A program made the position numbers and the translations under genes. Shown one piece after another: positions 18,468 to 64,000 of a DNA stretch of 64,000 bases (its first letter is position 1; each line of letters starts with the position of its first letter). Origin of the DNA: Spisula solida (lineage: Eukaryota; Mollusca; Bivalvia; Venerida; Mactridae). Under the pieces are notes generated by a model. That model made no database searches, was not told the DNA's origin, and saw nothing but the letters and a program-made list of their open reading frames with translations. The stretch spans positions 4,221,001 through 4,285,000 of the forward strand of contig OX365953.1 of NCBI GenBank assembly GCA_947247005.1, in the 5' to 3' direction.

Positions 18468-20343
18468 GTAAGTAAGTAAGTAACGACTTTATTTATAAAG
18501 AAAATGAAACAGTGTTAGTTGAACTTAACGATATAGGATACTCATGTATTGTTTAAAACGTTAACCTATAATTAAATAGCGTAGTATACATACAAAATCA
18601 ATAATCAACTGTGAACAAAAGTACTATTCAATATGTATATATATTGTATAGATACGATAATATTAAGTCAGACAGGGAAGGCATCACTCAGCTTAACCAA
18701 CCGGGCACAGCAAACATATAAGCGGCACAGACACTGTCCAACGTAAAAATCTAGCCACTACAAAAACACGGCATCCCGCCCCAAAAGTATGCCGCTTCAG
18801 TCAGTCAAACTAAAACGGAACGAGAGCCAGGTGACAAGAAAATAACCGAACATTACACACCACAAGGACAATCTACAACATATATATAGTGTACATGCAA
18901 TTTTGAAAGATACGAAGCAGCCTTGTGCTGGACTACGAAATTGCAGAATGGCACATACAAAATGAACAAAGTTTAACAAAAAGGCACAATGGCGAAATAT
19001 TTTTGTAGTTTGAACATTGAGATCCGAATGCATAGATTATTATAAAGTATTGTGTTCGAGATTCAAGAATTGTCTAATAAAAGAACATGTGTTCTCTGCC
19101 TGTCTAATATGTAATGGAATATCATTCCAAATAGATGCTCCTGAATAGGAAAAATAGTTCTTAAAGAATTCCATGTTTGGATGTGGTACAACCAACTCTT
19201 TATTCGTTGTTGATCTTAGTCCAGGATTAGCTTTTAATACAAATTTATCACTTAGATATTTTGGGACTTTATTTTGCATCGAGTTATACATTAAAACAGT
19301 TTTTTTATATGTTATTTTTTCATCAATTGTCATCCAATTTAGTTTAATGAAGAGTTCTTCTGATGGATGGTCATGCGGTTTATCCAGAATTACTCTAGCT
19401 GCCCTTTATTGAAAGTTGTAAAGTTTATCCCTGAGTTCTTTGGCACATGACCCCCAAATTGTACAGCAATAGTCGAGGTGGGGCAGGATATAAGCATTGA
19501 AGAAAAGTTTACGAGAATCTATATTAAGACAATGTTTGATGCGTAGTAGTAGGTATAGTAGAGAGTTAGATTTTTTAATAAAGAACATGACCAACTTGCC
19601 TTTTCCATGTTAGAGTTTGATCTACAAAGATACAAAGCAGCTTTTCTTCTTTTGAATTTGAAAGCACTTGGTTGTTAAGTATTATATTTGAATCATCATA
19701 TTCAGATATGTATTTTGATTTTTTGTGTGATGCAGCAACATACATAACTTTAGTTTTTTTGGGCATTTGGTATCATGGCATTCTGTGTGCACCAAGTTTC
19801 AGTGATGTTAACTTGCTCTTGTAGGGATGTGTTAACGTCGCTGAATGTGTTACCTGAAGCAGACAGTGTTGTGTCATCAGCGAACATGTCGATTTTGGTG
19901 TTATTATGTTGATAGAGGGGACGATCATTTATGTAGATAATGAAAAGTAAGGGTCCTAAAACGGATCATTGTGGAACTCCCGCATTTATACCCTTTGCAT
20001 CTGACAACTGACCTGATATGCTAACTTTTTGGAAACGGTCTGTTAAATATGATGAGAACCACCTAATTGTTTTAGGGCTTAGCTTATAACACTCCAATTT
20101 CTTGAGTAGTAGTTTATGGTTGATAAGGTCAAATGCTTTAGTTGGATCTAGGAACACAGTTTGAACAACTTCATGATCATTTATAGTGTCAATCCAATTG
20201 TCTATTATATTTGTGAGTGTTGTCTCACATGAGTGGAATTTTCGAAAACCCGATTGATGAATACTTATAAGATCATTTTTATCAATAAATATTTTTAAGT
20301 GATTTGAGACATGTCTTTCATATATTTTTGCGAATTCGCACAT
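18468..20343 (-). mobile_element. LINE remnant with reverse transcriptase, CR1/Jockey-like
   Basis: On the minus strand, from 20343 down, a frame encodes reverse-transcriptase residues with IHQSGFRKFHSCETTL, DPTKAFDLINHK and INAGVPQ. A stop at about 19965 follows. The frame resumes with GPLLFIIYIND and MFADDT (the catalytic box), then C-terminal pieces between 19766 and 19040 (PHLDYCCTIWG and WNDIPLHIR). The 3' end at about 18468-18485 is a short (TTAC)n tail. Stops and frameshifts make it a pseudogene. The 5' end is truncated: no endonuclease domain seen. Confidence 0.85.
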
Positions 20344-21056
20344 AAATATTAAAGTTACTCTATTTATATATGTGTGAAATAATAGAACAAATGTTTGTTT
20401 GGTTAAAGTGTACGTGAGTTGTTCAACTTATATTTAAACAAAAAACGTCGGAGTTTGCAATGCTAGCTTAATGCAATCGATATATCTCATCTCAATATTG
20501 AATGAAAATGTAATAGGTAATACATATAATCAATGTGTAATATATATGCAATATGGTTAGAACTATAAACGTTCAATTTGTAGATGGTGTTGTTTTTGGC
20601 TTTTTCAATATCACTTTGATGGTGTTGTTGTTGGCTTTTTCAATATAACTTTGAGTTTTGTACCTTAAAAAGACAGCTTATAACGCCGTGTACTCAAACT
20701 TTGATCATGATCTAACCGTAGTGCATATTTAATTTACAAATGATTGTATACGTTTCTTGGTAAACTACTTGACACCATTGGATAGGCGTTATTCGAACTC
20801 ATTGCGAAAATCCTGTAAATGGTGGATGTTCATATGATTTTGTTCAAATATAAGTTTAACACCTCTCGTATAACAAAATACTGTAGCGCACAGACAATAC
20901 AAAGCCACACAAAAACGACGGCAGCGCCTAGCCATCCACGCAAGAGTCAGACATAGAACGAACCATCCACATTCCCAAAAATGGATATTTCAAGCAAGCC
21001 TATATACTCACTCTGCAATGAATGACACGCTGTGGACTTCGAATTATGTGCATAAT
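20344..21056. other. intergenic with a small dispersed repeat
   Basis: The stretch at about 20880-21000 (accession-like phrases GCGCACAGACAATACAAAG and TTTCAAGCAAGCCTATATAC) has a relative at about 45425-45545. A short internal direct duplication, GATGGTGTTGTTTTTGGCTT, occurs at 20583 and 20619. Nothing else recognised. Confidence 0.4.
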
Positions 21057-25199: not shown

Positions 25200-26080
25200 G
25201 ACTTGTTATCGTCGGCGAGCATTACTGTCTATAAAGTTATATTTACCATCATTATGTCAAACAACTTTATTATGAATTTCCGTCACAAGATTAATGAGAA
25301 TTTAATTCTTATGTCCACGTCTTTTGCTGCATAAAACATTTAATGAAATTAATTATAAAACTTATTAATTTCAGTTCATGAGTAAGTGTGCTTCAATTCA
25401 TAGGCAGTCAGCACGTACCCTATTTGGATCAAGCACTATCCTAGCCATATCAAAGTTTACTTTTGTTAACCTGTTTATGAAAGGCCGGTAACAACAAAAC
25501 AAATATTTTTTTCATAATCCTGTAAAATAACATCATTTGCCGTATTTTTTATTATTCACTCAGATGCAACGTTACGGACACCATTATGCAGTTTTACGTT
25601 GTACTTTCATGATACTGTAACATCACATATTTTCATGGGCAATAGATTTCGTGGATTTTGATAAAAAAACCTTTCCTTGGGGTCGTAAATTCGTGGATTA
25701 CAGAACGTAAAAGGGTGGGCGATAAAATATGAAGTTCTCTGTCCATACGCATACATGTATGACATATTACAAACATTAATCCCATCCCCGTCACATTATT
25801 GTAAAAACTACGCACAAGTGGACGACAAAATGCTCCAAGTTAGAGGTTCACGGATTTTTTCAAAAGTAATTTTTCTTTAAATTGGAATTTATTTGGCATT
25901 ATGATATACTAAACTTACCCTTGAACTATAACAATTAATATCAATAAAGTGAAATAAGTAAAGCATGTCAGCACTTTCATTGCAATTCTTGCTCGTTCAA
26001 AAAAACACAAACTGCCAAATGATTCTTCCTTAATTGAATATCCTTCTTACAACTCCAGTGAACAAACTCTTACTTATGAC
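25200..26080. other. intergenic, nothing recognised
   Basis: AT-rich, no conserved exon and no clear repeat seen. Confidence 0.4.
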
Positions 26081-30649: not shown

Positions 30650-30655
30650 ATGGAG
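30650..30655 (+). CDS. candidate first coding exon of tyrosinase copy B (Met-Glu)
   Basis: The stretch ATTGTGTTGTAG...GGAGTCTAGTC ATG GAG followed by GTTTGA aligns with the copy A leader ATTGTGTTTTAG...GGAGTGTAGCA ATG AAG followed by GTATGT. The phase (0) is right. The donor GTTTGA is weak and Glu is less usual than Lys near a signal peptide, so this is a candidate only. I found no ATGAAG followed by GT elsewhere between 26000 and 33600. Confidence 0.35.
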
Positions 30656-33440: not shown

Positions 33441-33661
33441 AATCACTGGAGCTTTACGAATACTTTTGGTGAATGAAGTTAACGATTAGACATATTCTGC
33501 ACGATTCAAACATGAACTACATTATCAATTAACCATTAGGACCGGTTTATTGTTAGATGCATGTATATCAATCGTATGTTGCAAAGGGGTTAAAACGAAC
33601 TAACGTTCCAAAAAATAAGAGTTATTGAGATCACATACCTGTTTTTTTGTTTTTTTTTCAG

Positions 33662-33800
33662 ACGGTATGGTTCATGGTGGTGTTGATGACCATTGGTCAG
33701 CAAGCCATCGCAGAAGTATCACCCCTCCAACCTCTACCACAGGACTTACAGCGATATTTGGATATATGCAAACAGACAGGGGATCTTACTCAAAACACAG
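33662..33800 (+). CDS. copy B exon 2: signal peptide exon
   Basis: Acceptor is a long T tract then CAG. Encodes TVWFMVVLMTIGQQAIA and the mature start EVSPLQPLP. The donor is GTCAGA, weaker than GTAAGT in copy C. The last nine exonic bases AAAACACAG plus the donor are part of the 37-bp minisatellite that follows. Confidence 0.88.
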
Positions 33801-36800
33801 GTCAGACTGTTTGTTTTGTTATACTATTAAAACACAGGTCAGACTGTTTGTTTTGTTATACTATCAAAACACAGGTCAGACTGTTTGTTTTGTTATATTA
33901 TCAAAACACAGGTCAGACTGTTTGTTTTGTTATACTATCAAAACACAGGTCAGACTGTTTGTTTTGTTATACTATCAAAACACAGGTCAGACTGTTTGTT
34001 TTGTTATACTATCAAAACACAGGTCAGACTGTTTGTTTTGTTATACTATCAAAACACAGGTCAGACTGTTTGTTTTGTTATACTATCAAAACACAGGTCA
34101 GACTGTTTGTTTTGTTATACTATCAAAACACAGGTCAGACTGTTTGTTTTGTTATATTATCAAAACGCCGGAATAACTGTTTGACGGTTACATTGTTATT
34201 AGTTGTTGAACTTGACCAAGAAGTTATTCCCTACTATCAGTATACCGCTGGCTTAGAATGAAAAGGTCGTTAGTTCTACTTACGACCTTATTAGAATCAT
34301 GCATATTTGAAATTTGATTTAATAACCTTGTAATTTAATTCAACTTTTTTAGCTATGCCTGTCCGACGACAATTAAAAATAAAGAGAGACGGAAGTCAAC
34401 GTCAATAATGTTAAACTTGCAATTGTGATATGATGCCAAACATGAACACGGCGGGCAACTGACAACTACTACACATTATAAATACGGATCAACCCCAGTT
34501 AATGTCAAAAAATAATATCTCAATCCCGAAACTCTAACTTGGATCACTCTGGTGACATTGTAGCGCGGTATAAACTATGGTAACCTGGCGTGTCGAACTA
34601 GGTGAAATATTCATACATTTAGAGCAGTGTCTAAATGATTGGAGAATGAAATAAAAATAAACAACTTAATTGTGTAATTTTTCAGGACAGCTTGTATTTT
34701 GGACATCACTTCAACAGTATGTATCAAAATTTGCACTGAGTGAGAAGATGGCACCTGATGACGCCGAGCTGCTTAGTAAAACTGTGTATGAAATAATGCA
34801 ACCAATTATGGGGAACAAGACCCGATATAAACGACAAGCGCCTCTTCGACTACGGAAGGAAATTCGTTCCATGACGTTAACTGAGAGGCGCAGCTACTTT
34901 AATGCTGTAAACGCTGCTAAAAACGACAGAGTAAGTGTACAACTGTATTGTATTAACACGTACAAAATGCACTATGAAATATGATGTATTAGCCCAACTT
35001 GGTTTAAGATAGACATGGTAGGTTTGGCTTGTGTAGTTGACATTGTGCTAAAATTCCTAGTATTTCTACCATATCATTGACTTTGATCACATTCTACACT
35101 CGTTGAAATGCTGTCAATTCCCATGAAAATAGTTTTGCTATTTACTAGTAATGTATTGTACGAATGACAATGACAAAATGGTGTTAACCAAGATTCAAAT
35201 AGTAAACTAAATGACAGTAGTGTTTTCATTTGATCTTTGTCTTCCCATATGTCCCTATTACTAGCATCAAAACAATTGCTATGAATCATGTTTACATGTT
35301 CTCACACTTTCATCAAGCGTATGTAACAGTAATTTCACCGATGTCAATTTCTTACCTGCATTTTGTGACCAACGACTGTCAATGTCAAACTCCCGAAATG
35401 AACTTGTTAAGAGTACACATATTAAAGTCCCATTATGCCTTAAATGGCTATTTTCAAAAAGCAATAAGTTGGCAACCTATTTGCAGAATAATGCATTGTG
35501 AGCGCTTTAGTTGAGTCCGAAAGGTGAAATACACCATAATATGGAAAAAAACGAAATAAAGCCTCCAGTTGATTTGTAAACAAAATAACGAAATGTAAAC
35601 AATAAATGCATAATTTAAAGTCTAAGGGGAGCAACTCTTGCAAAATTAGTATTTTGTCATCAATACATTTTACTAAATCTGATTGTTGGCATACTATTTC
35701 GACTTTTTGGTCTATTTACTGGATGATCGGGAAAAACGTTTTGGGAGAGATAATGTGACTTTAATAAGGCATTTGTTTGTCACTACAATGATTTGTAACA
35801 GCAAGGTATCAATGAGCTTATACAATGTATATTTTTGTTCTTGTATATGTACGACTGTATACAGTCTAATTCGTATGCACTGGCCGAGAGCTTAGAGCTT
35901 GCAGCTTGAGCATATTGTTTTAAGAATATATTTTTAAGCCTCTAGTATGTTTGTAAAACCCTGTACTGTAATATAAAAAAACGTCTGCAAATGACCTTAT
36001 GCCGAAGCATACATAATCGTACTTCAGTGTTTTGTGGTCATATTACATGTGATTAAGGGCTTGCTTGATTAGAGTATTAACTGTGGGTTATAAAACAGCG
36101 TTTTTCTAATTTTCACAGCGACTAAGGCCTAATGTGTATGATGTGATGGCACGATTTCATATAGGACGTAACATTGAGAGAGGGCACTTTGGTCCCGCGT
36201 TTCCATCTTGGCACAGGATTTACTTATACATGTAAGAACACTTCTTGTATTACCAGTGGTCTCCCATAGACGATTTTAAGGTTAATAAGGTTCACAAAAG
36301 GCATATCTTGGCCCCGTTATTTTCCTAAAAAAAATGCTTCTTTTTATAAATGTGTTCTATAATCCTAATAACTCAACACTACATGTGTAAACAATGAGCA
36401 TACATATCGCTATGTCATATGTTATCCGTTGACAAAACTTCAAAAAATATGTCATGTTTAGTCAAAAATGACGTTTATGGCCTTTTTACGACCATTTATG
36501 TTATAAAACCTTCTAAAAACACGATTGCAGTCTTGCTACACATTGGTATTTTTACATACTCAGTGTTTTACATGGTTTCATATATGTACCAGTGTTTCGG
36601 AAAGGTTTTTCGTCATGAAAAGCCATAAAATGGCTAAAAAGTAACATTGTTTGTTAAAACAGAACATATTTGCTTAATATTTACACAGAATACTTGTCGA
36701 CAGATTACAAGGAAATTTGAATATGTATGCTTAAAGCCACATAAGGCCTTAATATAACTGGCTATTGTCAAAGGCGATAACTAGGTAACCCAATTGAAGA

Positions 36801-39800: not shown

Positions 39801-42800
39801 AACAGGGCAGACTGTGGTCATACACGATATTGATGTGCGACTTCGTTGTTTTAAGCAGTGAACTGAATGGTCGTTTTCTAATATGTTTTTATTATGTTTT
39901 AGAACGGTAATTAACTCAACGTGATAGAAAATAGTTTCCTGATTCCAATGGTATATTCGATTCACAGATAGGTCTAATATTTTTTCAGTTAAATGAAAAA
40001 TACGAAGTGTGTACTTAGAACATTCGACTAGTGTATAAGCAAGCGCACCAGCAAAATAGTGACATTACTTTTAAATATACTCACATAGATACCTCACACG
40101 GCGGTGGAATCAGTCCCTTAGATGTGAGGAGCAAACATTGAACAATTTGTAGTCAGTGACTACCAAAGATCTACACCTTGATTATACAATTAAATTTCGC
40201 CACATAATAATAACAGACTTACGTCATCTTGGAATTGTGCTCGTCTAATTTTCTATTTGGTTTTATATCGGAGAAGTGATTGTAACGTTGGTTATCAATG
40301 AAAAGACATTGAATGAAGGTTAACTTAACACTGTTTAAGACATTTAACACCAGGATGGTGCTATTTATAACTAAATAAATGCTAAAAACAGCGACATCAC
40401 CGATAAAATATCCATACTTATTTCTTTCACAGATACGAATCAGTTCTTCGAAATTGGTACGACCCATCAGTGACTGTTCCATATTGGGCATCAGTGTTAG
40501 ATGATGCAATGGTTGATTCAACACAATCTGTAATATGGAGCGACGGTTTCTTTGGTAATGGTAACGGTATAGTAAATCGAGGACCATTCTCCACCTGGCC
40601 TCAACTGACACCTGGTAGAGTTATTAGGCGTAACGTTGGTGCCGCTGGGGGCTTGTTTTCATATGCTAGAGTACGAAACATCCTTAGAAACAGTAGGAAT
40701 GCAGACATTCTTTTCCCGACCGCCACGGCTGGAAATAATTTGGAAGAACATCATGGAGGGCCGCACATATATGTCGGTGGTACTATGAGTGGTTTACAAA
40801 CGGCAGCTTTTGATCCCATATTTTTCAGTCACCATGCTTATATTGACTACATTTGGCAACAATTTAGAGATCAACAATTCGTTAACCCAGAGACCGACTA
40901 CCCGTATGACCCAAGTGATCCTAGGTTCAGTCGATTACATGCCCCTGATGCAAACGCAGGGTTTTCATCAGTTGGAGATACCACGTTTTTTGGAATGCAG
41001 TTATCAGCTTTGACCCAGAGAACAGGGTACTTGAATATTTTCTCGCAGATTATTCGCTATGAGCCATTGCCCGGATGTCCTTGTGATAGGCCGTACCTTT
41101 TCTGCGAACGAGGTGTCTGTGTGGCAAGGACGACTACGGAAATGGCAGGAACATTTTACGTTCAAGATCTTGGCTTAAGTTCATTCAATAGTCAACAAAA
41201 CAATTCGTTGACAGGTTCAATTATTTCAAAACCACCACCGCCGCCACCAGTTCACCAAAATGAGGGTTGTCCGAGAAACACATACATTCACGATGTGAAG
41301 ACGAACTATATGGGTCAGAATTCATTTTCAACTGTCAATCAGTGGGCATATATACCAATCAAGGTTGTATCCAAGAGACCGCCGGGTATGACACGTTACG
41401 AAACATACAGCCTGTATGACGATTATAGACCATGGCATGCGAACAACGAATTAACAAGCATGTGTTTACAGAAAGGATACAGTGGTTGTAAGAAGGATGA
41501 CGACGCAGTTGGTAAAATAAACATAGTATCATATGGTTTAAATTTTGATGGGTATGCAGAAGATTATATAATTGTTGACAACCGGTTGGGTGTTTCTGAG
41601 GGTAATGGATATCTGCCAGTTAAGAAACCAACTCGTTCAACAGAAACCGAAGTTATTATTGCTGCGTTCGATAGTTGTGGTCGTGTTTGTAAACCATATT
41701 GCAATTTACCATATTGCGAAGGTTTAAACAAAAATTTCAACGGAGCGTTAAGTATATCTTCCAGCCTACCAGAACGATATTATGACACGTACGAAGAAGC
41801 AATACTGGGTGTATGGAAGTCATCGAGATCGTACGGACCTAAATATGAAGACAATATTGTTCCTATTACATTTTTCTGCGAATATGGTGATACCTGGATA
41901 TGGGACCAATACGTCCCGCCGCCATGGAACCCTCCTGTGGTGAGTATAAAGCCGACACCGCCGCCATACCAAGAACCAGTACATACCTATAATACCAACC
42001 AGAACCATGTGAACGATTTACCAACTTATCCTCAGAGAAACCAAGGGGGTCAGTCATTAGCTAAACCTAATTATCCAGAACAGTACCGATCACCTACGCC
42101 AGATTCTTCTAACCGAGGGGATCAGTCATTAGCTAAACATAATTATCCAGAACAGTACCGAGCACCTACGCCAGATTCTTCTAACCGAGGGGATCAGTCA
42201 TTAGCTAAACCTAATTATCAAAAACAGTACCGAGCACCTACGGCAGACTTTTCTAACCGAGGGGATCAGTCATTAGCTAAACCTAATTATCCAGAACAGT
42301 ACCGAGCACCTACGCCAGATTCTTCTAACCGAGGGGATCAGTCATTAGCTAAACCTAATTATCCAAAACAGTACCGAGCACCTACGGCAGACTTTTCTAA
42401 CCGAGGGGATCAGTCATTAGCTAAACCTAATTATCCAGAACAGTACCGAGCACCTACGCCAGATTCTTCTAACCGAGGGGATCAGTCATTAGCTAAACCT
42501 AATTATCCAAAACAGTACCGAGCACCTACGGCAGACTTTTCTAACCGAGGGGATCAGTCATTAGCTAAACCTAATTATCCAGAACAGTACCGAGCACCTA
42601 CGCCAGATTCTTCTACGTCGAATTCAGCCTATCAAACTGGCGGAAATCAAAACAGGCCGCTTAACCCAGCAGATTGTAAGTAACTGTGTATATTGTTCAA
42701 TCAAAACACACACTTAGAGCCCTTTAAGTTGTATTGGTTTTCATCTGACTGGACTGTTGTGTAACTCGAGGTTTGGTTATGTTTGAATTGGTTTGGTATT

Positions 42801-43390
42801 GGATGGATGGAGGGGTGGGATGGAGAGCTAGGGGAATGGGATTAATGTGATTGGTTGGATGGATGAACACAAAACGTTCAGGCCCTCCTGTTATATTTTC
42901 ATTCACGTCTTCAAACAGCATATTTTCAGTTATATAAACCGAATGCATATAAGCAAATAGGGAATTATTGTGGCCTCTCACATTTCTGAATGATTATTAG
43001 CGTTTCTAAGTAGTGTTGTTTCCATTAGTCGATGTCATCGTTTATCATTTAAATAATATAACCAGTCCTACGTTTTATTTGTCTTACTATTAACCATTAT
43101 GGACATAAATATGTGTTTATACTATTATCTGACAATGATACATGCAACCACGTAAAACCTTTACTATGCCAACATGATTTGCGCGTGTTTTTAGTCACTT
43201 TGTCAGTAAAACACCGAATTATTTCATACTTTCAGGCTGTCAGGTATCACCAAACTGTCTGATTTACGTACCGTGTGAGGGATGCACCAATTTCGACAGT
43301 CAAAAATGCGAGGGAAGTAGTAAGACAGCCATATGTCTTCGGGGCCGATGGTCCGTAACCTATCGCAAACAGATTTACAGTAAAAAATGA
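33662..43390 (+). CDS. tyrosinase copy B with RGD / adhesive-type tandem repeats
   Basis: Spliced exons: 33662-33800, 34686-34930, 36119-36231, 40433-42675, 43236-43390, plus a two-codon start exon upstream (candidate 30650-30655); about 966 residues. Signal peptide as in copy A (AIA then EV). CuA ligands H144, H153, H162; CuB H275-x3-H279 and HH 301-302, all intact, so it should form DOPA and quinones outside the cell. RYKRQ at 95-99 fits a furin-type site. The catalytic domain, Cys cluster and C-terminal domain follow copy A closely by eye. Residues 704-895 are eight 24-residue repeats, units 2-8 with RGD, most with AKPNYP[EK]QYR; the last exon has the same six-Cys spacing as A. AATAAA lies at 43434. 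Likely a paralogue by tandem duplication; the tail suggests matrix or adhesive function, which is inference. Confidence 0.93.
33791..34170. repeat. 37-bp minisatellite spanning the exon 2 donor of copy B
   Basis: About ten units of AAAACACAGGTCAGACTG followed by TTTGTTTTGTTATACTATC. The first unit overlaps the end of exon 2, and each later unit recreates the exon end and its GT. Since 37 is not a multiple of three and the unit has no stop in any frame, all three frames stay open through the array. This explains the long repetitive hypothetical proteins here. Confidence 0.95.
34246..34330 (+). mobile_element. miniature element, family M2, copy 4 (truncated)
   Basis: Starts CGCTGGCTTAGAATGAAAAG and continues TACTTACGACCTTATTAGAA then CATGCATATTTGAAAT as in the full copies, then similarity is lost. 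Confidence 0.6.
34686..34930 (+). CDS. copy B exon 3: N-terminal helical segment
   Basis: Acceptor TTTTTCAG, donor GTAAGT; 245 bp, phase 1 to 0. Encodes GQLVFWTSLQQYVSKFA, then NKTRYKRQAPLRLRKEIRS and FNAVNAAKNDR. RYKR before Gln is the furin-type context. Two residues shorter than A and C. Confidence 0.93.
35414..35770 (+). mobile_element. dispersed element, family D, copy 2
   Basis: Begins near AAAGTCCCATTATGCCTTAA and ends ATAATGTGACTTTAAT. Terminal AAAGTCCC/GACTTTAA phrases and internal AGGGGAGCAACTCTTGC. Matches 17985-18385 in reverse. In intron 3 of copy B. Confidence 0.65.
36119..36231 (+). CDS. copy B exon 4: CuA site
   Basis: Acceptor TTTTCACAG, donor GTAAGA; 113 bp. Encodes RFH (H144), GHFGPAF (H153), SWHRIYLY (H162). 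Same length and phase as copy A exon 4. Confidence 0.94.
36280..36735. mobile_element. foldback element, family E, copy 1 (degenerate)
   Basis: Related along its length to 62892-63483: GGCCCCGTTATTTTCCT, TATGTCATGTTTAGTCAAAA, AAAACCTTCTAAAAACACGA, and mirrored GAAAGGTTTTTCGTCATGA. Intron 4 of copy B. Confidence 0.6.
36738..37850 (+). mobile_element. dispersed element, family D, copy 3, split by an insertion
   Basis: 36738-37028 matches the first part of the family (ATAAGGCCTTAATATAACTG, AAGGGAAGCAACTCTTAAG, GGCATACTATTTCGACA). The end (CTACTGGATGATTGGAAAAA then GGGAGAGATAATGTGGTTT) resumes only at about 37780. About 740 bp of the repeat described at 37040-37740 lies between. Confidence 0.6.
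37040..37740 (+). repeat. 160-bp tandem repeat rich in TCAAGGTCA
   Basis: Three to four units of about 160 bp with CGTGTCCGTTCCATAACTTT, GAATTGCATGAAACTCATAC and TTCAAGGTCAAGGTCAC. TCAAGGTCA is the core of NR5A/ERR-type nuclear receptor half-sites and occurs two to three times per unit. The left edge is a GTCCGTCCG-type stretch at 37098-37130. Most likely a transposon-derived segment; any regulatory role is inference. Confidence 0.75.
37850..38430. mobile_element. foldback element, family E, partial arms
   Basis: 37850-37962 matches the right end of family E (GGAACATGCATTTTTATTTT, CACAGGGCCAAATTAAGTCA). 38190-38428 matches the left half (GGCTAAATTTGGCCCCGTGT, ATATGTCATATTTAGCAAAA, GTAAAACCTTCCGAAGAAG). 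Unrelated sequence lies between. Confidence 0.55.
38802..40035 (+). mobile_element. decayed Tc1-like transposon in intron 4 of copy B
   Basis: Terminal inverted repeats TACACTTGACGAATGTTCTA and TAGAACATTCGACTAGTGTA, flanked by TA on both sides; 1234 bp. Remnants of one transposase are on the plus strand. About 39108-39172 encodes AIGMLETGMSIRRV, like the N-terminal helix-turn-helix of the family. 39609-39833 encodes WPPCSPDLKPIEYVCDEFGR, containing the last catalytic Glu of the DDE motif, and ends in GHTRY and a stop, as these transposases do. One internal stop and loss of the middle make it dead. Confidence 0.85.
39609..39833 (+). pseudogene. Tc1-like transposase C-terminal remnant
   Basis: 75 codons including one in-frame TAG after RRQHQTV, ending GHTRY-stop. 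SPDLKPIEY is the conserved block around the third catalytic acid. The N-terminal remnant is about 440 bp upstream, so the central catalytic region with the first two Asp is deleted or unrecognisable. Confidence 0.85.
40433..42675 (+). CDS. copy B exon 5: CuB, C-terminal domain and RGD repeat tail
   Basis: Acceptor TTTCTTTCACAG, donor GTAAGT; 2243 bp against 1742 in copy A. Encodes VPYWASVLDD, EEHHGGPH, DPIFFSHHAYIDYIW, the Cys cluster CPCDRPYLFCERGVC and a KPPPPPPVHQ linker. The domain with NIVSYGLNFDGYAEDY and CEYGDTWIWD follows. The repeat tail then runs 42039-42614. The frame is open throughout and reading-frame conserved with copy A outside the repeats. Confidence 0.95.
42039..42614 (+). 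repeat. eight in-frame 72-bp repeats (24 residues, RGD and AKPxYPxQYR)
   Basis: Units start N-R-G-D-Q-S-L-A-K-P and end in PTPDSS or PTADFS. Unit 1 has NQGG instead of NRGD; units 2-8 have RGD (seven in all). From unit 3 on, types with QYRAPTADFS and with QYRAPTPDSS alternate, so the recent unit of growth is a 144-bp dimer. Seven extra units (504 bp) account for the 501-bp difference from exon 5 of copy A. Confidence 0.97.
43236..43390 (+). CDS. copy B exon 6: six-cysteine C terminus
   Basis: Acceptor TACTTTCAG, stop TGA 43388-43390. Spacing C-x5-C-x5-C-x2-C-x7-C-x8-C as in copy A, preceded by one extra Cys made by the split codon. Ends in RKQIYSKK. Confidence 0.92.
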
Positions 43391-48835: not shown

Positions 48836-50234
48836 TATCTCCCTTTCTATAATTTTAAGATTACATTTTGTCCAGAGCATAACTCAAAAACTATTTGAGA
48901 TATTGACCACAAGCACATGGTGTTGTCAATTTAAAAAACCTTATGTATTAGTATGAAAAAAAATCCGAGTACCATCTTAAATACCAGAAGGTCGCTCAGC
49001 TGACATATTTTCAAGCAACAAAAGTAGAAATATTCACGTATCGATTTTACCGGTACCCCGACTACGCGTTCTGATACGCTTACGCGCCGGGAACCAAACA
49101 CTTTGAACACAATTGCTCGGCGCTATTTATACAGTCCGCCAAAACTTGTTGACAGTTGAGGACGGTTGATTAATGTTTACGAATCAAAAATACAAAGTTT
49201 TTATCCATATTCTATCCTAATTGTGTTAAAAAAACTATTCAATTTATTGACTTGAAACGTATTAGTAGATTGCATCTAGGAGAAGTGCTGTGACTAAGAA
49301 ACTTAACTCAAGCTGGTACCATTATTGAATTATTTCCATTTAACCAAATCAGTTATGATATTTCCCTTGAAGTTATTTCTTAATATTTTCTTTCTATTAA
49401 ACTCTGCACGTTCCATCATTTTATTCATTATCTCTATTTATTTAATTTCCCTAACATATTTTCCTTCTGTTATATCTAGTCCTGTTTCTATAAAACATCG
49501 GTTAGTTACAAACATATATAGCGGGGATGGCCATGTGAACATGGCTCTTGTTTCATTTTAAATTCGTTTTATTAATATAACTGTTTTGATTAGTCCAAAG
49601 GGTAAAAGCAATATATGTCGAACACACTTGAACTTGATCAAAAATCGTTTTTGAACAAAAAAATGTAACGGAATGCCTAATTTTTTCCCGGAGTTAAATT
49701 ATGCATATATACTCAGTAACTTTTCTAAGTCCACACGTATATTTTTGATGATAACTTAGTCAATCATGTAGATATCACAATGACATTTGGCTAAAACATG
49801 CGTGGGTTATCGCTGTGGAGAATTGACCATAAAAATCGAGTTTGCTATACATTTACTGAATGAAAACAATCTGAACATATCAACTAAAGAAGGTTAAGTC
49901 ACAAATACAGATTTTGATATCTTAGATGACCATCGTGTAGTCTGATTTTTCTACTGGCAGTCACAGACGAAACTCGGAAGCATGGGTAAGTGAATTAACT
50001 CGTTGAATTTTACTGTCTGGACGCTTTTAGTGGTAGCACGTCTCTGAAGTAGCCCGATTTTACGTCATAACGCCACTTGAATTACAAACTCTCTCGCAAC
50101 CAGCATTGTACAACAGACAAACAATAAGTTTACCTATAATAAAACACTCATAGGCATGGATACGTTGTAAATCAATCAGTCGGTGATGTTTTTTCTGACA
50201 TCGTCTGACGTATAACTGTGATATTAGTTATACG

Positions 50235-51762
50235 TCGGTGCTTGCCCACATATTCAGCTTATCTCTTGAAAGCGGCCTTGTACCAAGCGATTGGAAAAAA
50301 GCCACAGTAGCCCCTGTTTTTAAAAAGGGTCTCAAATCAAAACCTAGTAATTACCGCCCAATTTCCCTTACCTGCATAGCCTCTAAACTCCTTGAACATA
50401 TTGTTGTCTCCAACCTCATGACCTACTTTGACGAACATAAACTCCTCAGTGAGTTTCAGCATGGTTTCAGATCAGGTCACAGCTGTGAGACCCAACTAAT
50501 TAACTTTACTAAGGACTTGTTCAATAACACCGAACAGGGCAAACAGACAGATGTTGCCGTCATGGACTTCTCCAAGGCATTCGATAAAGTCGATCACAGT
50601 AAACTAATACACAAACTGGAATGCCTTGGAGTTAATCCCCAAATCACCGGCTGGGTCAAATCCTTTCTGTCAAATAGATCCCAGAAAGTTGCCGTCGACG
50701 GTCAACTTTCCAGCGAGCTCCCGGTACTATCCGGAGTACCGCAGGGATCCGTCCTGGGACCTTGTCTATTCTTGGCCTACATTAATGACCTGCCCGACTC
50801 TGTCAAGTCCAATGCAAGAATGTTTGCAGACGACACTATTATATATCTCACAATAAACTCCATGTCAGACAGCCTATCCCTTCAGCAAGACCTTGCCAGC
50901 CTTGAAGTCTGGGGAAAAACCTGGTCCATGGAGTTTAACCCGGACAAATGTGAGATACTACGCATCTCCAGAAAGAAACAACCGACGACTTTCCCTTACA
51001 AACTCCACAACACTGAACTAAAAACTTGTGACGAAGCAAAATATTTAGGTGTAACAATATCAAAAGATTTAAATTGGTCTAAACACATTAATAATGTAAC
51101 ATCTAAAGCAACCTCCTCTCTCCGCTTCATACAACGTAACGTAAAACCAAAAAGTAAAAATTGCTGCTTACAACACATACGTCCGACCACAACTTGAATA
51201 CAGTTCTAGTATCTGGCATCCCTGGCAAAAAAATCTTTCTAACAAAATCGAAAAAGTCCAAAGGTCCGCAGCCAGGTATGTAATGAATGACTACCACTAC
51301 ACCAGCAGTGTAACACAGATGTTAAATTCTCTTGAATGGAAAACCCTCCAACATAGACGATCCATCAACTCTCTCCTAATGTTTTATAAAATAAGGGCCC
51401 AAACAGTTGCAGTCGATTCATCTCATCTTATTCCAACCAGAAATCTCAATTACCTAATCCCTCAATCTCACACCCAATACTTCTCTAACTCCTTCTTCCC
51501 TAGGACTATCCGACTTTGGAACTCCCTCCCAACCTTGGTCAAATCCAGCCCCAGCCTAGATGTCTTTAGAGACCGGCTGGCGGCTGTAGAACTGTAAATG
51601 AACTGTCTATTTTAACTGTAACATACTGTATTTTATCTTTTACACTTTTAACACTTGTAACATACATATTTCTTTAATAACTGTTTTTCTCTGACAGCGC
51701 CACCCTGTAATAGTCGGCAATCGACGGTTGGGTGTATGATGTAGATGTAGATGTAGATGTAA
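50235..51762 (+). mobile_element. 5'-truncated LINE with reverse transcriptase (CR1/Jockey-like)
   Basis: Plus-strand frame from about 50238. It has VAPVFKKG, NYRPISLTCIASKLLE, FQHGFRSGHSCETQL, DFSKAFDKVDHSKL, SGVPQGSVLGP (catalytic-region block) and MFADDT (catalytic Asp pair), then the thumb. The frame is broken at about 51157 by one extra A in an A run. It resumes as YVRPQLEYSSSIWHPW and continues to a stop at 51595-51597. The 3' end is a (GATGTA)n tail at about 51738-51762. No endonuclease domain or 5' part remains. Its higher GC than the neighbourhood and nearly open frame indicate a young insertion. Confidence 0.92.
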
Positions 51763-54888: not shown

Positions 54889-54894
54889 ATGAAG
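54889..54894 (+). CDS. copy C exon 1: two-codon start exon (Met-Lys)
   Basis: ATG AAG then donor GTAGGT, preceded by CGTGAAGGAGTG, the same leader as in copy A at about 280-290. A possible acceptor TTTACAG ends at 54853, matching TTTTCAG at 253 in copy A. Confidence 0.75.
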
Positions 54895-57800
54895 GTAGGT
54901 TTCGACACAAGAAGATGTATTACTTTTTATAATTAATATTTTATTTCATTTATTTTGTTAGTTTTTTTCACAGAGTTCAGCTGGTAGATGATAAGTTAGC
55001 TGTCGGTCTTCATCATGTTTTGCGTAGAATATATAACAAACATGAAACATTAAAAATATCTAAAAGCTATATCCTGCCAATGATTATTTTTGAAATTTAT
55101 TTTATTTTGTGATCATATGGACTAGAACATACGTAATAAGAACATGTATCATTGTCATGAAAAATTGTTTTTTTGTTTACGTGAACACAAATGATCGCAA
55201 ATGGGCATAGTTAATTTTTCATTCACACTCGTAACTAAAGATTGGTTGGCAAATCATAGGAACTATGACAGCACCGACTCACCGGTATAAGTAGGAGTGG
55301 GCCGATGCATCGAAATATCGATGCATTGCGATTCCGAGTGTCCCGATAGTATAGATCGATAGTAAAAGTCTCGATCCAATAACTATCACCGATAGTTAGC
55401 TCAGCAATCGATAGTTACGATAGTTTCCTTTTTATAAATAAAGATTATTATTAATTTTAAACAACTTTCGTTTTCGTTAAAAAACTAATTGTAAACAAGA
55501 GCCATGATCACATGGCCATCCCCCGCCGTATATGATTGCCACTTATTGGTCTAAATAGAAACAAAACTAGATATAAAAAGAAAGAGAAAATAAATAAAGA
55601 GTTAATTAATGAAATGGAACCAGGCAGAGTTCAATAGAAGTTAAATGTTTTGGTCGATTACCCCCATAATTGCAATTTGTCGAAAAAATGTGAGCACCAT
55701 AGTGACAAAAATGTCTATAAAATCATCAAATTTAATTTTTTTTAAATGAAATGATTTCCCATGTGCCTAATAGTTATATTAATAAAACAAAATCAATCAC
55801 AAGCAGAATATGCTATATAAGATTGTTATGTTCATATAATTATATTACCAAAATTTTGTGAGTTGTTTCATTCTACAATATATATAATGTCTAAATTCCT
55901 GAATAAAACTTGAATCAATGGGCGTATATTACTTTCAATTACCCAAACATTTTTTATACTGATATACACATACTTAGACTGAATAAAATACAGGTTCACC
56001 TTGAAATTATCAAGATATAACATTTTGTATGACCCCACCCACCATATTTCATACTTTAACGATAAAAAAATTCCTATAATGTAAAATAATTTTTTTTTAA
56101 ATATTTTCCACCATATAACAGTATAAATGCACGATTAAATACAAAGTATTACATAAACACTTAAAAACGAAAAAAAAACGTTTTTATACTGTTATACACA
56201 TACTTAGACTGAATAAAATACAGGTTCACCTTGAAATTATCAAGATATAACATTTTGTATGACCCCACCCACCATATTTCATACTTTAACGATAAAAAAA
56301 TTCCTATAATGTAAAAAAATTTTTTTTAAATAGTTTCCACCATATAACAGTATAAATGCACGATTAAATACAAAGTATTACATAAACACTTAAAAACAAT
56401 ATAAAAAAATGGTCCCAGTAGGGTTTGAACCCACGACCCTCAGGAATTTGTCAAAATTATTTCCAAATTAAACAAAGGGAGATAATTTCAAAACTAGGCC
56501 GTATAGAGTTATGGTTCTTGGTCACTGCACTTCCCCTAGTTGCCATCTATTCACACACCAAGTTTCAAGTCAATACCTCAAAGTTTAAGAGTTATGCTCC
56601 GAACAAGATATGGGACGGACGGACGGGCGGACGGACGGACGGACAGACGGACGGACGGACGGACGGAAGGACAAACGGACGCATACTATTGCTATATACC
56701 TTCGCCTTCGGCGGGGGATAATAACCACACGCACTAGAACAGCCACAAATTGGCACAATGGACCAATATCGCCTCAATTTTATCAATCTATTTATGTCAA
56801 ATTCATTTTAAATCATTTCCACAAATAGTAGATATGTTGTACAACAAAGTGATATCTTACACAGTGCAAATTTCCTTTTACAAGTTAATCTCTGGTTTTC
56901 TAATCTTGGCAATAACTTTTGCAATAGTATCGCAATAGTTTCCAGCAATACAATAGTATCGCAATATTACTTTCAGCAATAGCAATAGTATTGAAATAGT
57001 CAAAATTTGACTCAATAGTCATCCCGATGTATAAGGCAACATTTGAACAAGACTAATTAATATTTCAAGTTCCGTATTATTGCAAGACAAGTAGTAACAA
57101 AGCTATATTCAGCAAATATAAATGACTAGTATATTTATGCATGCGTAACAAAAATATAATTACAACAATAAAATAAAACAGCCTTTAAAATAAATGAATC
57201 GTTTTATATGAGCTACCGATTTTCTAAACGCATAAGGCATTGTATTTCATATTTCGCCAAACGCATGTCACTACATCACTTTCCGTCTCCCATAAGTACG
57301 TTTAACGTCATCCTCTGTCGAAGTCAAAAAAGTTGCATTGCATATTATCTAAAGACAAATACTTGCCGCTTGTTCGTCAGATACACAGAAAAACTTGTTT
57401 CTGTGGGACATTATATTTTTTAAGTTCAAGCGTCACCTAAAGCATGAATATTATGTGTAGTGACTGTCTAACATAATATTCAAGATATAAACATGTTATA
57501 CTTGTAACAAATCCTATACTGAACAGTTAGATATCATATTGGTGTTTTTTTTATTTTAAAAATAAGAGGCTTATTCATGTGAAATGAACTTCATGAAGCA
57601 TAGAACGGCCAAATTGAATGCGATTTAAGATCGTTCGTGGTCTCATTAGATGCAAAAAAAGTATTAGTCGCTTTGACGAGTATTTTCACGATATTCAAAA
57701 TAAGTGTATACGCACCCATAAAATACCTTGCATGGCTTCATAATAATCACTCCGAATTAGTAAAATGTTTTAAGTCAAAACGACAAGACGCAAGTCGATT

Positions 57801-60800
57801 TAGAGCAAAACACCTGTTAACTTGTGACCTTTCTACGCGTCCGTAAGCTTCATTATTTTGACGTTTTACAAATATGGAACACGACAAACACCAAACGCGT
57901 TTTTCCTGAGTGACTTTTTTCGTGTTCGTCGTTTCCTCTTCACCTTTTCCTCTTCACCTTTTTCAAAATGACAGTGCGTTACATGTAATTACTCCTCGTG
58001 TGTTTTTGTTATTCTACCGTAAAATGTTTTGACTGATTAAAATGAATGAAAGACGGATAATAACGAATGCGCAAATAAAAATATTTAAACGATATTATCT
58101 AAGTTTTCATTTAGTGTTTTGATCGCCTTGTTTTGAATTTATATTTTTGCAAAACTCATGCTGGTAGGACAGTATGGCATGTGAAATGTTGCAAAATTGT
58201 ATAAAAGAAATATTTGTTTAATAAAAAAATATTTATTCTTAAAATATATCTATATCGTAAAAATGTATAATATATTTGTTTAATAAAAATATATTTATTC
58301 TTAAAATATATTTATCTGATTAAGATATTGATTGATCAAAAATTGTTGATATATAAAGAAATAAGTTAAATAAATGTTTTTTCATCAATCAATACTTTTA
58401 TGAATAAATATTGTTTACCTAAATAAATTCTAACCGCATAAATATATCTTAGGAAAAATATACTTTATGTTGAACAATTATTTTTTGTAGAATTGAACAA
58501 TTATTTTGGTGTTCAACAAATAGTTCTTTTATACAACTTTGCAACACTCCACACGCCATAGGAGAGATACGCTTGATTTTATAGTAGTTTCTTGGGATTT
58601 TAACATTACGCAGTTTTTGTATTCCCTGTGTTTCTTTCTTGAAAAAGAAGCGTCGATTTATAATCTTTACTACATTGTTTAAAATGATGTATATCTATAT
58701 CATAATCAATTTGTTCTTAATTTATCCGTACATTTAGCTCAATGGTAATTTCGTTCCAGACTGCTTATATTTATTACCAAACTTCATTGCATGCTGTTTG
58801 TTACAAAAATGTATTAATGCCACTTTAAAATGTTCCATAATTGAAAAGAGTAATCATAATGAGACAAAATACAACATAAATTGAGATCATATCTGGAATG
58901 TTAAGGAATCTACAACTCTTTTTTGTTAAGGCTCTGTTTAAAACTTGTCGTGACTTTTGTGTGGCGTCGTAAATGCCATGCAAGCGTCATTCGACGTATA
59001 CCACATGATAAGAATACTATCGGTCTGGCATAAAACAAACAATATATTTCATAGTTCTTAGTCCTACTTTCTTATTGGCGTGTTGTTTCAGACGGTATGG
59101 TTCATAGCGGTGTTGATGACCATTGGTCAGCAAGCCATCGCAGAAGTAACACCACTTCAACCTCTACCACCGGAGTTACAGCGATATTTGGATATTTGCA
59201 AACAGTCGGGGGATCTTACACAGAATACTGGTAAGTTGTCATGGGACATAATTATATCCAAAAAAATTATAGAATAAACGAAATTAACCATTATGTCGAT
59301 TAATATTTAAACATTTCCCATATCATTATATATCAATGGGGATAACGTATAGAACGGAAGTGATACCCCTGACGGTTTTTCGAGTGTAAATTTCGTCGCT
59401 TCGGTAAGTAAATCTTGATTTTTCTTTGTTTTGTAAGACGCTTTCAATGAAATCACCTAGCCCACCGTACCCGGCCCTATCGATACTTGCAGACCCAAGC
59501 CAATTTTCCCTTCAAATACCTGTGATTAAGGAGAACATTCGATTCTAGTGCGGTTTTGGTTACTGCACCCCTGACGACCCGTCTACATTTTTGTCCAATT
59601 TCTGCCGATTTGCATGGTGTGTTGCTGTTTTATGGGGCCCACTTCGTTGTTTACCTTATTCTAGGTATGCATTTTGCAAAATTAGTTCGATGCAGTCAGG
59701 TTATGAGGCAGAATAGACGAAAGAACTACTATGATACCCCTGACGGTTGCTGTCCCTAACTGATACCCCTGACGCCTCAAAATACTATAATGTTGTAATA
59801 CGAGACGGTCGGCTCTGTACATGTTCAACCACTAAAAAATCAAGATTCTAATCAATACAGTTATTGCGTAAATACATTAAGAACTTGATAAACAATTCCA
59901 ATAGACAAAAACAGTTGCATACATAGCTTTGGAATCGTTCTACACGTTATCCCCATTGTATATGTATCATGTTATACAAATATTATTTATATAAAGATAT
60001 CCTTACGTAAATGTCGGTTGAGTGTATCATGCATGTTGATGCGAGTCGGATGTTATGGTGTATCTCTATCCGTTGTCAATATGTATGCGTTTGGAGTTGA
60101 TTTTATCCCAATATATGCATGTGTCTCTTTCATTTACTTTAGTCTTGATATTTTCGGTGAAAGTTTGTGATATTTAAGAGTGTTTTATTTAACATATGTA
60201 ATACTGCGGATTTTGTAGACAACCCGAAACATACGTATGTATTACTTAGTACCAAGCAATATTTTAATGTCGCTTCCCTGGTCTATTCTTTTTTATTGTT
60301 TGGCTGACAATCTTAAACAGGGTTACCCTTCGCTGAAATCTGTCTTAAAATCTTTGTTGTATGAATAAGCAAGTCTTTCCATCCACAATTAAACTGGATC
60401 CATGATATAAAGTAAATGTCTTGAATGTGTATAAGAATTAATTATAAACACAGTTTGAACAATCAGAAACTTGGTTTTGTCACTAACCATGGTCGCCTTA
60501 GGCCAGAGTTCTTTTATTTTACGTTAATCAGACCCTCCTGTCCAATTTTTGGCATCTTCAAATAAAACATAATTGCATGAAATTGTGGAGAGTTTTTATT
60601 GTAATTTATGCACATTGTTTTATTATTTTATCATTCTATTTATGATAAACTGGTATAGTGCTTGTTTACTTTTGTTTTCATTCACAACTGTACGACAGGT
60701 ACCTGTATCATTGAAAAAAAATTCTACAGGAATCTATTTTAGAAAACCTTCAGTTGTTAGTTCGCTTTCTGATCTGCGACATGTTGAAACTAATCAACGC

Positions 60801-63800
60801 AAATATGGGTTTTGGCGCCTGAAGGAATCAGACATACGCAGAGCTAGACCAGAGTCTGAGACTATTGTTAGCACTAAACCCCAGTCAGGTACAGCATGTC
60901 CTATCCAACATGTCAAGATTAATGGATTATGTTGGCTATTCAACGAAAAATTAACTGCTTGATATGGACAACATGTATTATCCGACATTTAGTGTATGTA
61001 CGTACAATAAAATAGATTTCATATAATGTTTATCAGACTACCAAGGTGAATATCATATAAGTATATAGTAAGACATTTATCAGTGGATTACATGCAGTAA
61101 CTCTCTGCATCAAAACAGTGATAATAACAAACTGATATTTTACTGCAGTGAAAATAACATTTTAATATGTTTTATGTATACAGTAAATTATTTCAAGTGA
61201 TGTAAATATCAATGCTCATGACAAGAAATAATTGGAAATGAAATTCTGGCGAGAGTTTATTGATTAATTTATGTCTCTAATGGACATGTACGAACTGAAA
61301 CAAGCTGAAACTGACAAATTAAACTGAATAAACGGATTATGTCGAGGGGTTTTCTCAGAGGATTATTAGACATATCCAATTGACGGACTTTATGCACAAG
61401 TTAAACAAAGCACAGGTGACCGCATTGTTTTTATCATTTAGTATTTGATATAATTAAAGGCTATCAATATCCTATATATAACATTTTGTGGTAAATGTAC
61501 TCTGAAGTAAGAAAAAGAACTTGCCTTTTCGGTATCAAAATTATATTGTATGTATAAAGCACCCAGTAAAAGTATATTTTTCTGACATTCGTTAGCTGTT
61601 ACACTCGCTTGTTAGTATTTGAAAAAAATAGATTTCAGAAAAGTAAGGTTATTAAAAAAGTGAGGAATGAAAAAGCTAGGTTTCAGAAAAGCTAGGTTTT
61701 TAAAAAAATTTAGGTTTGTAAAAAAGTTAGGTATTTAAAAAAGTTAGTTATTTAAAAAGTAAGGATTTTAAAAAGTTAGGTTTTAAAAAAAGTTAGGTTT
61801 TTAAAAAAAAATAGCTTTTTAAAAAAGCTAGATGTTTTTAAAAAGTTAGGTTTTAAAAAAGTTAGGTTTTGCAAAAAAGTTTTTAAGTTAGGTTTTAAAA
61901 AAAGTTGGGTTTACAAAACTTTTCTTTTTTAAATAATTAACTTTTTTTTAAAAAGCTATTTTTTTAAATCCTAACTTTTCTGAAACCTTAGTTTTTTTAA
62001 AAACCTAACTTTTGTTCAAATCATAACTTTTTTAAAAACCTAGCTTTTCTGAGATCTAACTTTTTTCATATCCTAACAAGCGAGTGAAAAGCTGTCGAAT
62101 GTCAAACAATAGACTTTAACTGGGTGCTTTTTACATACAATAGAATTTTAATACCGAAGCTGCGTGTGTGTATAAGACACTTAGTTACATGGATAAGTCT
62201 AATTTTCTTTTGAGACGACCCTCTTGTTAATCCGTTTATCAGGTTAATTATTCAGTTTCAGTTTAAGCTCGTACACGTCTAAAATGCTTACTTGCGTTTG
62301 TTATAAAGTTTAAATAATATAAATGTCACTCAGTTTATTACGGAAAGTGATTCTTTCTAGTTAACGATTTAATTATTTTAATTATTGCCCTTTACGTAAA
62401 TGTAAGGTATGACCGTGTATTTGTTTGTATGTATATATTAATTTATTCAATCCCACATCTATAATTACAACATGTCATTCTAAAACAATACAAGTTCACT
62501 AGAGTATTAAATATTGTGCATATGTGCACTATTAAGACGACTGTTATGAATAAATTATCTTCGTACTGGGAGAGATATCACCAAGACATTTATGTCAACG
62601 TCCGTAAACTGAAAGTTAAAACATTGTACAACGCAAAATATAATGACACTTAGGTGAATTGCCAGACACTTACAAACACGTCATGTAAAAGTACCCCTTG
62701 ACAGGTGTTCTATTGTTCAACTGAATCTTGAATGTTAAATAAGTGAACTGAATTAAATACATCTTTACACTGAATTAAAAGTTTCGTGATAAACTGTTTA
62801 GTTCATTCACCATCGTTCATAAGGAGTTAGACTAAATGCAACACGGAAGTGGGTGAAAGAAAAGCTCAGTCCTTAGCGGGAACTGTTTAAAGGACAAGAT
62901 TCATTTGTGGCTTAATTTGGCCCTGAGTTTTATCGAAAAATAGAAATGCACCTTCCTATAAATCTGTCCAATGTTTCTAATAGCCTAACATTGTCTTTCA
63001 AAAAATTAGGCATACTTTTCTAAATTTCCCTCGTAATATGTCGACAAATCTACTTGAAATAGGTTAAGTTTACCAAAAAATGTCCTTTTTAGCCATTTTC
63101 GTGGCTTTTTATGACGTAAAACCTTCCCAAAAACCACGATGGCACTCTTTCGACACTTTGATATTTTGTACATATATAAAGATTTGCAGAACACTGGTTA
63201 TGTGAAAATATAAAAGTGTCGCAAGAGTGCCATCGTGGTTTTTGGGGGAGCATTTACGTCGTTAATAGTCGTGAAAATGGCCATTTTGGGCTAAACATGA
63301 CATATACGTCATATTCTTGGCAGTTTTGTCAACAAATTACAAGGGAAATTGGGATATGTATGCTTATTTTTTACACAGGAAATGTTAAGTTATTTGAATT
63401 ATAGGACAGATAATAGGAACATGCATTTTTATTTTTTGAAAAATCACAGGGCCAAATTTAGCCATAAGTGAACTTTGTCCTTTATTATCGAACTCTGCTA
63501 GCACAATGAAAGCTTCGGTAAAATATAAAAGTATACGTCAAGTGTGTGCCACCAGATAGCCATAAGTTCAATAGAAATAAATGAGTTTTTTTGTGTTTTA
63601 TTAAATATGGTAAATATTTCCTCTTGAGTATTTCATCTACGAGTATTATTACATTGATTTCAGGACACCTGGGGTAGGAGAAAAAGAAACAATGAAATCA
63701 ACTAATGTACCAAGTGGTTTACTTTTCAGGGCAACTTGTATTTTGGACATCGCTTCAACAGTATGTATCGAAATTTTCCCATAGAGAGCAACTGTCACCT

Positions 63801-64000
63801 GAAAACGCCGAGCTGCTCAGTAGAACTGTATATGAAATCATGAAACCAATTATGGGAAACAATCAAACGCGATATAAACGACAAGCAGACATTCGAACAA
63901 GGAGGGAAATTCGTGCCTTGACCTCAACTGAGAGAAGCGACTACTTCAACGCCGTAAACGCCGCTAAGAATGATACAGTTGTAAGTAATTTTAACTGTAA
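54889..64000 (+). CDS. tyrosinase copy C, 5' part (gene continues beyond the window)
   Basis: Exons 54889-54894 (Met-Lys), 59092-59230 and 63730-63980; the last donor GTAAGT at 63981 shows the gene continues. The 132 residues visible give the signal peptide TVWFIAVLMTIGQQAIA, the mature start EVTPLQPLPPELQ, and the helical segment with RYKRQADIRTRREIR ending FNAVNAAKNDTV. Splice phases equal those of A and B. No copper site lies within the window, so catalytic competence cannot be judged; all visible sequence is intact. It is nearer to A in exon 3 (HREQLSP is shared) but shares RYKRQ with B. Confidence 0.9.
55951..56405. repeat. two-copy tandem duplication of 230 bp
   Basis: 55951-56180 and 56181-56405 are nearly identical (TTTTTATACTGATATACACA against TTTTTATACTGTTATACACA). 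Only a few substitutions and A/T-run length changes separate them, so the duplication is recent. Confidence 0.9.
56410..56700 (-). repeat. dispersed element with box-B-like sequence and (GGAC)n tract
   Basis: The minus strand at about 56415-56440 reads GTGGGTTCAAACCCTACTGG, containing a pol III box-B-like GGTTCAAACC. On the plus strand, TTTCAAGTCAATACCTCAAA precedes the GGACGGAC tract at 56614-56685. The same phrase-plus-tract association occurs at 47735-47826. Likely a SINE-type element; no cloverleaf. Confidence 0.4.
59092..59230 (+). CDS. copy C exon 2: signal peptide exon
   Basis: Acceptor TTGTTTCAG, donor GTAAGT; 139 bp like copy B. Encodes TVWFIAVLMTIGQQAIA then EVTPLQPLP and ICKQSGDLTQNT. 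Confidence 0.92.
59334..59958. mobile_element. inverted-repeat element in intron 2 of copy C
   Basis: Ends CAATGGGGATAACGTATAGA and TCTACACGTTATCCCCATTG, inverted repeats of about 24 bp with one mismatch. Flanked by TATAT on both sides (59329-59333, 59959-59963). Contains GATACCCCTGACG at about 59361, 59734 and 59761 and a variant at about 59567. 625 bp; no recognised protein. Confidence 0.8.
60573..60962 (+). other. unassigned 129-codon open frame in intron 2 of copy C
   Basis: A hydrophobic start followed by a polar, coding-looking half (60700-60960) with KKNSTGIYFRKPSVVSSL and RRARPESETI. No domain recognised and no homologue in the other copies' introns. Could be a chance frame, a decayed mobile-element piece or an exon of something nested. 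I lean to chance or remnant. Confidence 0.2.
61280..62280. mobile_element. 1-kb interrupted palindrome with GTTAGGTTTTAAAA core
   Basis: Outer arms: ACATGTACGAACTGAAACAA at about 61284 pairs with the region ending CTCGTACACGT at about 62277. Middle: TTGTATGTATAAAGCACCCA at 61546 pairs with TGGGTGCTTTTTACATACAA at about 62120. Inner: CACTCGCTTGTTAG pairs with CTAACAAGCGAGTG. The core is a tandem array of GTTAGGTTTTAAAAAA units (61640-61910), inverted as CCTAACTTTT units after 61960. Confidence 0.8.
62892..63483. mobile_element. foldback element, family E, complete copy
   Basis: Nearly the whole 590 bp folds back. AAGGACAAGATTCATTTGTG at the left pairs with CATAAGTGAACTTTGTCCTT at the right. 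The centre has ACCACGATGGCACTCTTTCG opposite AAGAGTGCCATCGTGGT, with a loop of about 60 bases. Degenerate relatives lie in intron 4 of copy B. Ends about 250 bp before exon 3 of copy C. Confidence 0.85.
63730..63980 (+). CDS. copy C exon 3: N-terminal helical segment
   Basis: Acceptor ACTTTTCAG, donor GTAAGT; 251 bp like copy A. Encodes GQLVFWTSLQQYVSKFS through NQTRYKRQADIRTRREIRA to NAAKNDTV. Confidence 0.92.

Follow-up and report, generated by a model that had tools for sequence, protein, structure and literature searches.

The 64,000-nucleotide stretch of Spisula solida DNA analysed here (the window) contains a tandem series of paralogous genes with predicted tyrosinase domains, at least three in number and designated copies A, B, and C, all on the forward strand. 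Exons were located by comparing the 64-kb window with itself, followed by a check of splice sites, and the resulting gene models rest on genomic signals and conservation. In copy A, exons 1 to 4 (296-301, 2346-2487, 5787-6037, and 7610-7722) are supported by GT/AG splice sites and an open product. Exon 5 (9089-10830) is the paralogue of exon 5 in copy B and, at the corresponding position, likewise has a GTAAGT donor at its end, and the last exon (11360-11523), encoding a Cys-rich C-terminal module, is placed by splice signals and conservation. GT and AG are present at all five introns of copy A, and the open product comprises 805 residues. It starts with MKTVVWMIVVLMTIGQQAIA, which is signal-peptide-like as judged by eye, and the products of the copies are probably secreted.

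Copy B follows the same plan. Self-comparison and splice sites define exon 2 (33662-33800), which covers the N-terminus together with the larger part of the putative signal peptide, and exon 3 (34686-34930), while exon 4 (36119-36231), additionally supported by alignment, carries the CuA site (FH ... GHFG ... SWHR). Exon 5 (40433-42675) ends at a GTAAGT donor, and the last exon (43236-43390), with an AG acceptor and a stop codon at 43388-43390, encodes the Cys-rich C-terminal module. From exon 2 onwards the product comprises 964 residues, and the boundaries that were checked have GT and AG. A search for exon 1 of copy B in 11501-33662 did not find it and gave only weak candidates: the one near 25729 (E=0.004) lacks a proper donor at the matching spot, and the one near 30650 is a weak match (E=0.095). 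Copy C is partial (54889-63980): exon 1 lies at about 54889, exon 2 at 59092-59230, and exon 3 at about 63730-63980, where the gene is cut by the window end. Reverse transcriptase ORFs (RVT_1) are located between the tyrosinase copies, one on the forward strand at 50199-51194 (E=5.5e-41) and one on the reverse strand at 19969-20427 (E=5e-10).

The tyrosinase domain PF00264 is the only Pfam family detected in copy B up to E=1 (E=2.2e-29), scoring 103.8 bits in copy B and 98.4 bits in copy A against a curated cut-off of 22.6. The nearest solved sequences are tyrosinases and hemocyanins. Summed over their many units, hemocyanins come first, whereas for a single stretch the tyrosinase 8hpi reaches 81 bits, compared with at most 37 bits per hemocyanin unit among the alignments shown. 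The CuA residues FH/GHFG/SWHR align with the histidines of hemocyanin u152237 domain 4, and the CuB residues HGGPH/SHHA with those of u47375 domain 8. In the clearer unit alignments, His is thus found at the six positions which we take to be the copper ligands of the tyrosinase domain, although other unit alignments place the CuB GGPH differently. Asn after HisB1 is linked to monophenolase activity in tyrosinases. In copies A and B this residue is Gly, and in the clearer hemocyanin unit alignments (e.g., u47375 domain 8) it is Asn. Because of this Gly, the ability of the copy B enzyme to convert Tyr to DOPA appears uncertain.

Exon 5 of copy B encodes, in this order, the CuB half of the tyrosinase domain, a Cys-bearing stretch, a middle domain, a Pro-rich stretch, and an array of repeats. 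Copy B shares with type-3 copper proteins (PF00264) the Pfam match, His at the ligand positions, and the WHR and HHA..D signatures. It differs from them in the extra conserved middle domain, the eight-unit spacer formed by the array, the Cys-rich C-terminal module, and the Gly after HisB1. In NCBIfam, exon 5 yielded three families, all far below cut-off, namely two tyrosinase-type models and one collagen-like adhesin. The adhesin match (E=1.5e-5, 23.7 bits with a cut-off of 500) spans the Pro-rich stretch and the array and is probably due to low complexity. A scan of viral_contigs, a collection of viruses rather than animals, gave 27 stretches matching the exon 5 pattern, none of which was confirmed. 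AlphaFold2 modelling of exon 5 (747 residues, two-row alignment) gave a mean pLDDT of 27.0 and no usable model.

The middle domain (41268-41939), which follows the tyrosinase domain and precedes the Pro-rich stretch, is about 78-79% identical between copies A and B. No Pfam family scored above cut-off, and a PDB sequence search returned seven matches, none convincing (best E=0.12). Among collections without animals, genome_contigs gave 65 stretches, none confirmed, and a scan of plasmids, which says nothing on animals, gave no match. The AlphaFold2 prediction (224 residues, two-row alignment) had a mean pLDDT of 29.3 and was likewise not usable. A tblastn search with the C-terminal module of copy A matched that of copy B with 44% identity across 52 aligned positions (E=3e-12), and the two modules have six Cys in common, as judged by eye. 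Pfam searches with the last exons found no family above cut-off, and a PDB sequence search with the last exon of copy B gave no matches.

The array at 42039-42614 consists of eight 72-bp units, each encoding 24 residues in frame. Tandem Repeats Finder reports a period of 72, 8.0 copies, and 93% matches for 42039-42615 (score 1035), so that the repeat is far beyond chance. Its frame is that of a 758-residue stop-to-stop ORF (40407-42683). RGD is present in seven of the eight units (units 2-8), and unit 1 has QGG in its place. The pattern A-K-P-x-Y-P-x-x-Y-R, in the form AKPNYP[EK]QYR, occurs in six units (1 and 4-8), the exceptions being unit 2 with AKH and unit 3 with YQ. In total, the array comprises 192 residues with a pI of 9.35 and a GRAVY of -1.68, including 16 Tyr, 11 Lys, and 27 Pro, and the segment is probably disordered. 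At the DNA level, units 4, 6, and 8 are identical, as are units 5 and 7, and two 144-bp blocks are identical in sequence. These identities point to a recent expansion by copying of 144-bp blocks. Searches with the array found no Pfam family above cut-off and nothing useful in PDB (one match, a ribonuclease, E=0.05), and a 21-base array pattern had no matches in the virus collection viral_contigs, which does not cover animals.

An earlier sequence-only reading had described eight in-frame 24-residue repeats, seven of them with RGD and most with AKPNYPEQYR or AKPNYPKQYR, and this description agrees with Tandem Repeats Finder and the translation. It had further regarded the repeats as the tail of a tyrosinase covalently joined to them. 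The continuity of the copy B tyrosinase with the RGD- and Tyr-bearing repeats is upheld by the single exon, the PF00264 match, and the aligned histidines. The repeats thus belong to the same chain as the tyrosinase domain, but they are not C-terminal in the gene model, as the Cys-rich exon at 43236-43390 follows. The in-frame TAA that closes the ORF is part of the donor GTAAGTAA in copy B and also in copy A. Because the stop of the ORF would lie in an intron and a conserved last exon is common to both copies, the array is most likely internal.

The origin of the repeats can be traced by comparison with copy A, which contains a single predicted cognate of a copy B unit, NFGDKSLSWSKHQEQYQ (10713-10763, forward strand), where copy B has unit 1. 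Starting at the conserved YVPPPWNP and continuing to QY, the tails of the two copies can be aligned gap-free. Each of the five distinct B units has its best alignment with one and the same run of 17 residues in the A tail, always in one register (scores 33-42); 7 or 8 of these 17 residues are identical, as are 34-35 of 51 nucleotides (17 codons). In the fixed register, none of 20,000 shuffles reached the alignment score of any of the five distinct units. When the whole A tail was shuffled, none of 2000 shuffles reached the best unit's score of 42, the margin being narrow (maximum 41). BLAST finds the place of the cognate at E=0.024. From such a single segment, the expansion to eight units is, on the evidence of the identical blocks, recent in its last steps.

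Neither of the two motifs is found in the copy A cognate. Of the mussel-like positions A, K, P, Y, P, Y, and R it has one of seven, the last Tyr, and it contains GD without the preceding R. The codons at the RGD site are TTC GGG GAT in copy A, CAA GGG GGT in unit 1, and CGA GGG GAT in units 2-8. The seven RGDs are probably the result of one change in copy B that was then spread by duplication, and counting them as seven separate pieces of evidence was rejected, the units being copies. Because the cognate has one of the seven motif residues, the mussel-like decapeptide is most likely convergent. The caution in the sequence-only reading that the resemblance could be of this kind is accordingly favoured by the absence of the motif from copy A. 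With two copies compared, the motif may also have been lost in copy A rather than gained in copy B.

Mussel foot protein 1 consists of long tandem runs of its decapeptide, AKPSYPPTYK, carries DOPA in the repeats, and is expressed in the foot gland. In six of the eight copy B units, six of ten residues per decapeptide are identical to it. Long tandem runs are absent from the array, which has one decapeptide per 24 residues and a Tyr density of 2 per 24 residues compared with 2 per 10. A catalytic domain in the same chain and a paralogue whose cognate lacks the motif set copy B further apart. At least six of ten matches to AKPSYPPTYK occur in a shuffled unit with P=0.002 (200,000 shuffles, one preset motif), a value that overstates the true significance, as the mussel decapeptide was selected post hoc. 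With all rotations of the decapeptide permitted, six or more matches were reached in 219 of 20,000 shuffles (0.011). For RGD in a shuffled unit, P is 0.008. As copies of one another, the units provide roughly one instance of each motif as evidence rather than six or seven. RGD is the cell-binding motif of extracellular matrix proteins. The tripeptide as such is what seven of the eight copy B units have in common with these proteins; they differ in that no integrin-binding fold is known in the array and in that RGD probably spread by copying.

Selection was estimated from the comparison of copies A and B. The dN/dS ratio is 0.15 for the CuA-CuB region, 0.17 for the middle domain, 0.23 for both the N-terminus and the post-tyrosinase stretch, and 0.27 for the C-terminal module, where a dS of 1.39 makes the estimate rough. 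These ratios indicate that the flanking domains are under purifying selection. The Pro-rich stretch as far as unit 1 is less constrained, with a ratio of 0.42. Over the 17 cognate codons, copy A compared with units 1, 4, and 5 (three of the eight units) gives a pN of 0.27-0.30 and a pS of 0.47-0.51, and the 17 codons before the cognate give 0.22 and 0.51, respectively. Within the array, eight of nine variable columns are nonsynonymous and one is synonymous, with 75% nonsynonymous expected for random changes. The repeat sequence shows no sign of constraint at these small numbers and may be free to drift.

The explanation considered best, to which we give about an even chance of being correct, is that copy B encodes a tandemly duplicated, probably secreted type-3 copper enzyme whose internal spacer has grown from one to eight units. 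This basic, Pro/Tyr/Gln-rich spacer would lie between the conserved second (middle) domain and the Cys-rich C-terminal module. It would have grown by in-frame tandem duplication of a single segment like that of copy A, the 144-bp blocks being copied last. A longer spacer might extend the reach of the catalytic part while the Cys-rich end is fixed in the extracellular matrix. Its Tyr and Lys residues would be open to quinone cross-linking, and the enzyme might in this way become anchored in the material that it hardens. Cell binding through RGD may be an additional property, though the explanation works without it. The main rival is a neutral coding minisatellite, that is, an in-frame repeat that has grown in a tolerant linker, does nothing specific, and would vary in unit number between individuals. 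We consider this plausible but less probable than the functional spacer. It accounts for the nonsynonymous columns, which are about as frequent as for random change, and for the recent identical 144-bp blocks, and it suits a locus that readily forms tandem arrays, as seen from intron 2, where copies A and B carry minisatellites that differ from each other. The frame is kept without stops in all eight units, which speaks against neutrality, although a 72-bp unit preserves the frame by itself; the constraint on the flanking domains suggests that the insertion is at least tolerated.

The sequence-only reading had proposed that catalyst and adhesive are combined in one protein, the repeat Tyr being oxidised to DOPA by the enzyme and the repeats attaching to matrix or, via RGD, to cells. 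Seven units with RGD, six with the mussel-like decapeptide, its 6/10 identity to AKPSYPPTYK at P=0.002 for one motif, and an enzyme domain in the same chain are in line with this proposal. The motif was chosen afterwards, however, and P rises to 0.011 with rotations. The copy A cognate with one of seven motif residues and no RGD, the internal position of the array in the gene model, the Gly after HisB1 in both copies, which makes tyrosine hydroxylation doubtful, and the low Tyr density compared with the decapeptide also argue against it, and we regard it as unlikely. We would similarly expect little from a self-anchoring type-3 copper oxidase whose own quinone-cross-linkable RGD repeats, lying between the catalytic part and the Cys-rich end, glue it into the matrix that it hardens, the decapeptide having arisen independently within the enzyme in this lineage. 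For copy B, self-cross-linking or integrin binding is possible. If a mussel foot protein gene had become joined to a tyrosinase and given rise to the repeats, the similarity of the decapeptide, which is local only, would be explained. Such a descent was rejected as highly improbable in view of the single-copy cognate in copy A. Because this cognate is collinear with its flanks and lacks the motif, the tyrosinase most likely contained the segment first and the mussel-like look came later.

If the repeats of the enlarged spacer do cross-link, copy B would combine an enzyme and a substrate-like scaffold in one chain, with copy A as an unexpanded natural control. One could then also follow how a mussel-like motif originates by substitution and is multiplied as units are duplicated in tandem. 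A neutral array would be an ordinary coding minisatellite and a reason for caution about motifs in repeats, as seven RGDs can represent one event. The spacer of copy C, which lies past the window end, would tell whether the expansion is confined to copy B.

Tandem repeats also occur elsewhere in these genes. A further minisatellite, with a 23-bp unit and about 39 copies, occupies 4869-5763 in intron 2 of copy A and ends 23 bases before exon 3. In copy B, a 37-bp minisatellite (33790-34166) starts just inside the 3' end of exon 2, whose final bases and splice donor (CACAG|GTCAGA) it repeats ten times. One frame is open throughout this minisatellite (ORF 33629-34261), so that splicing from a later donor could lengthen the product.
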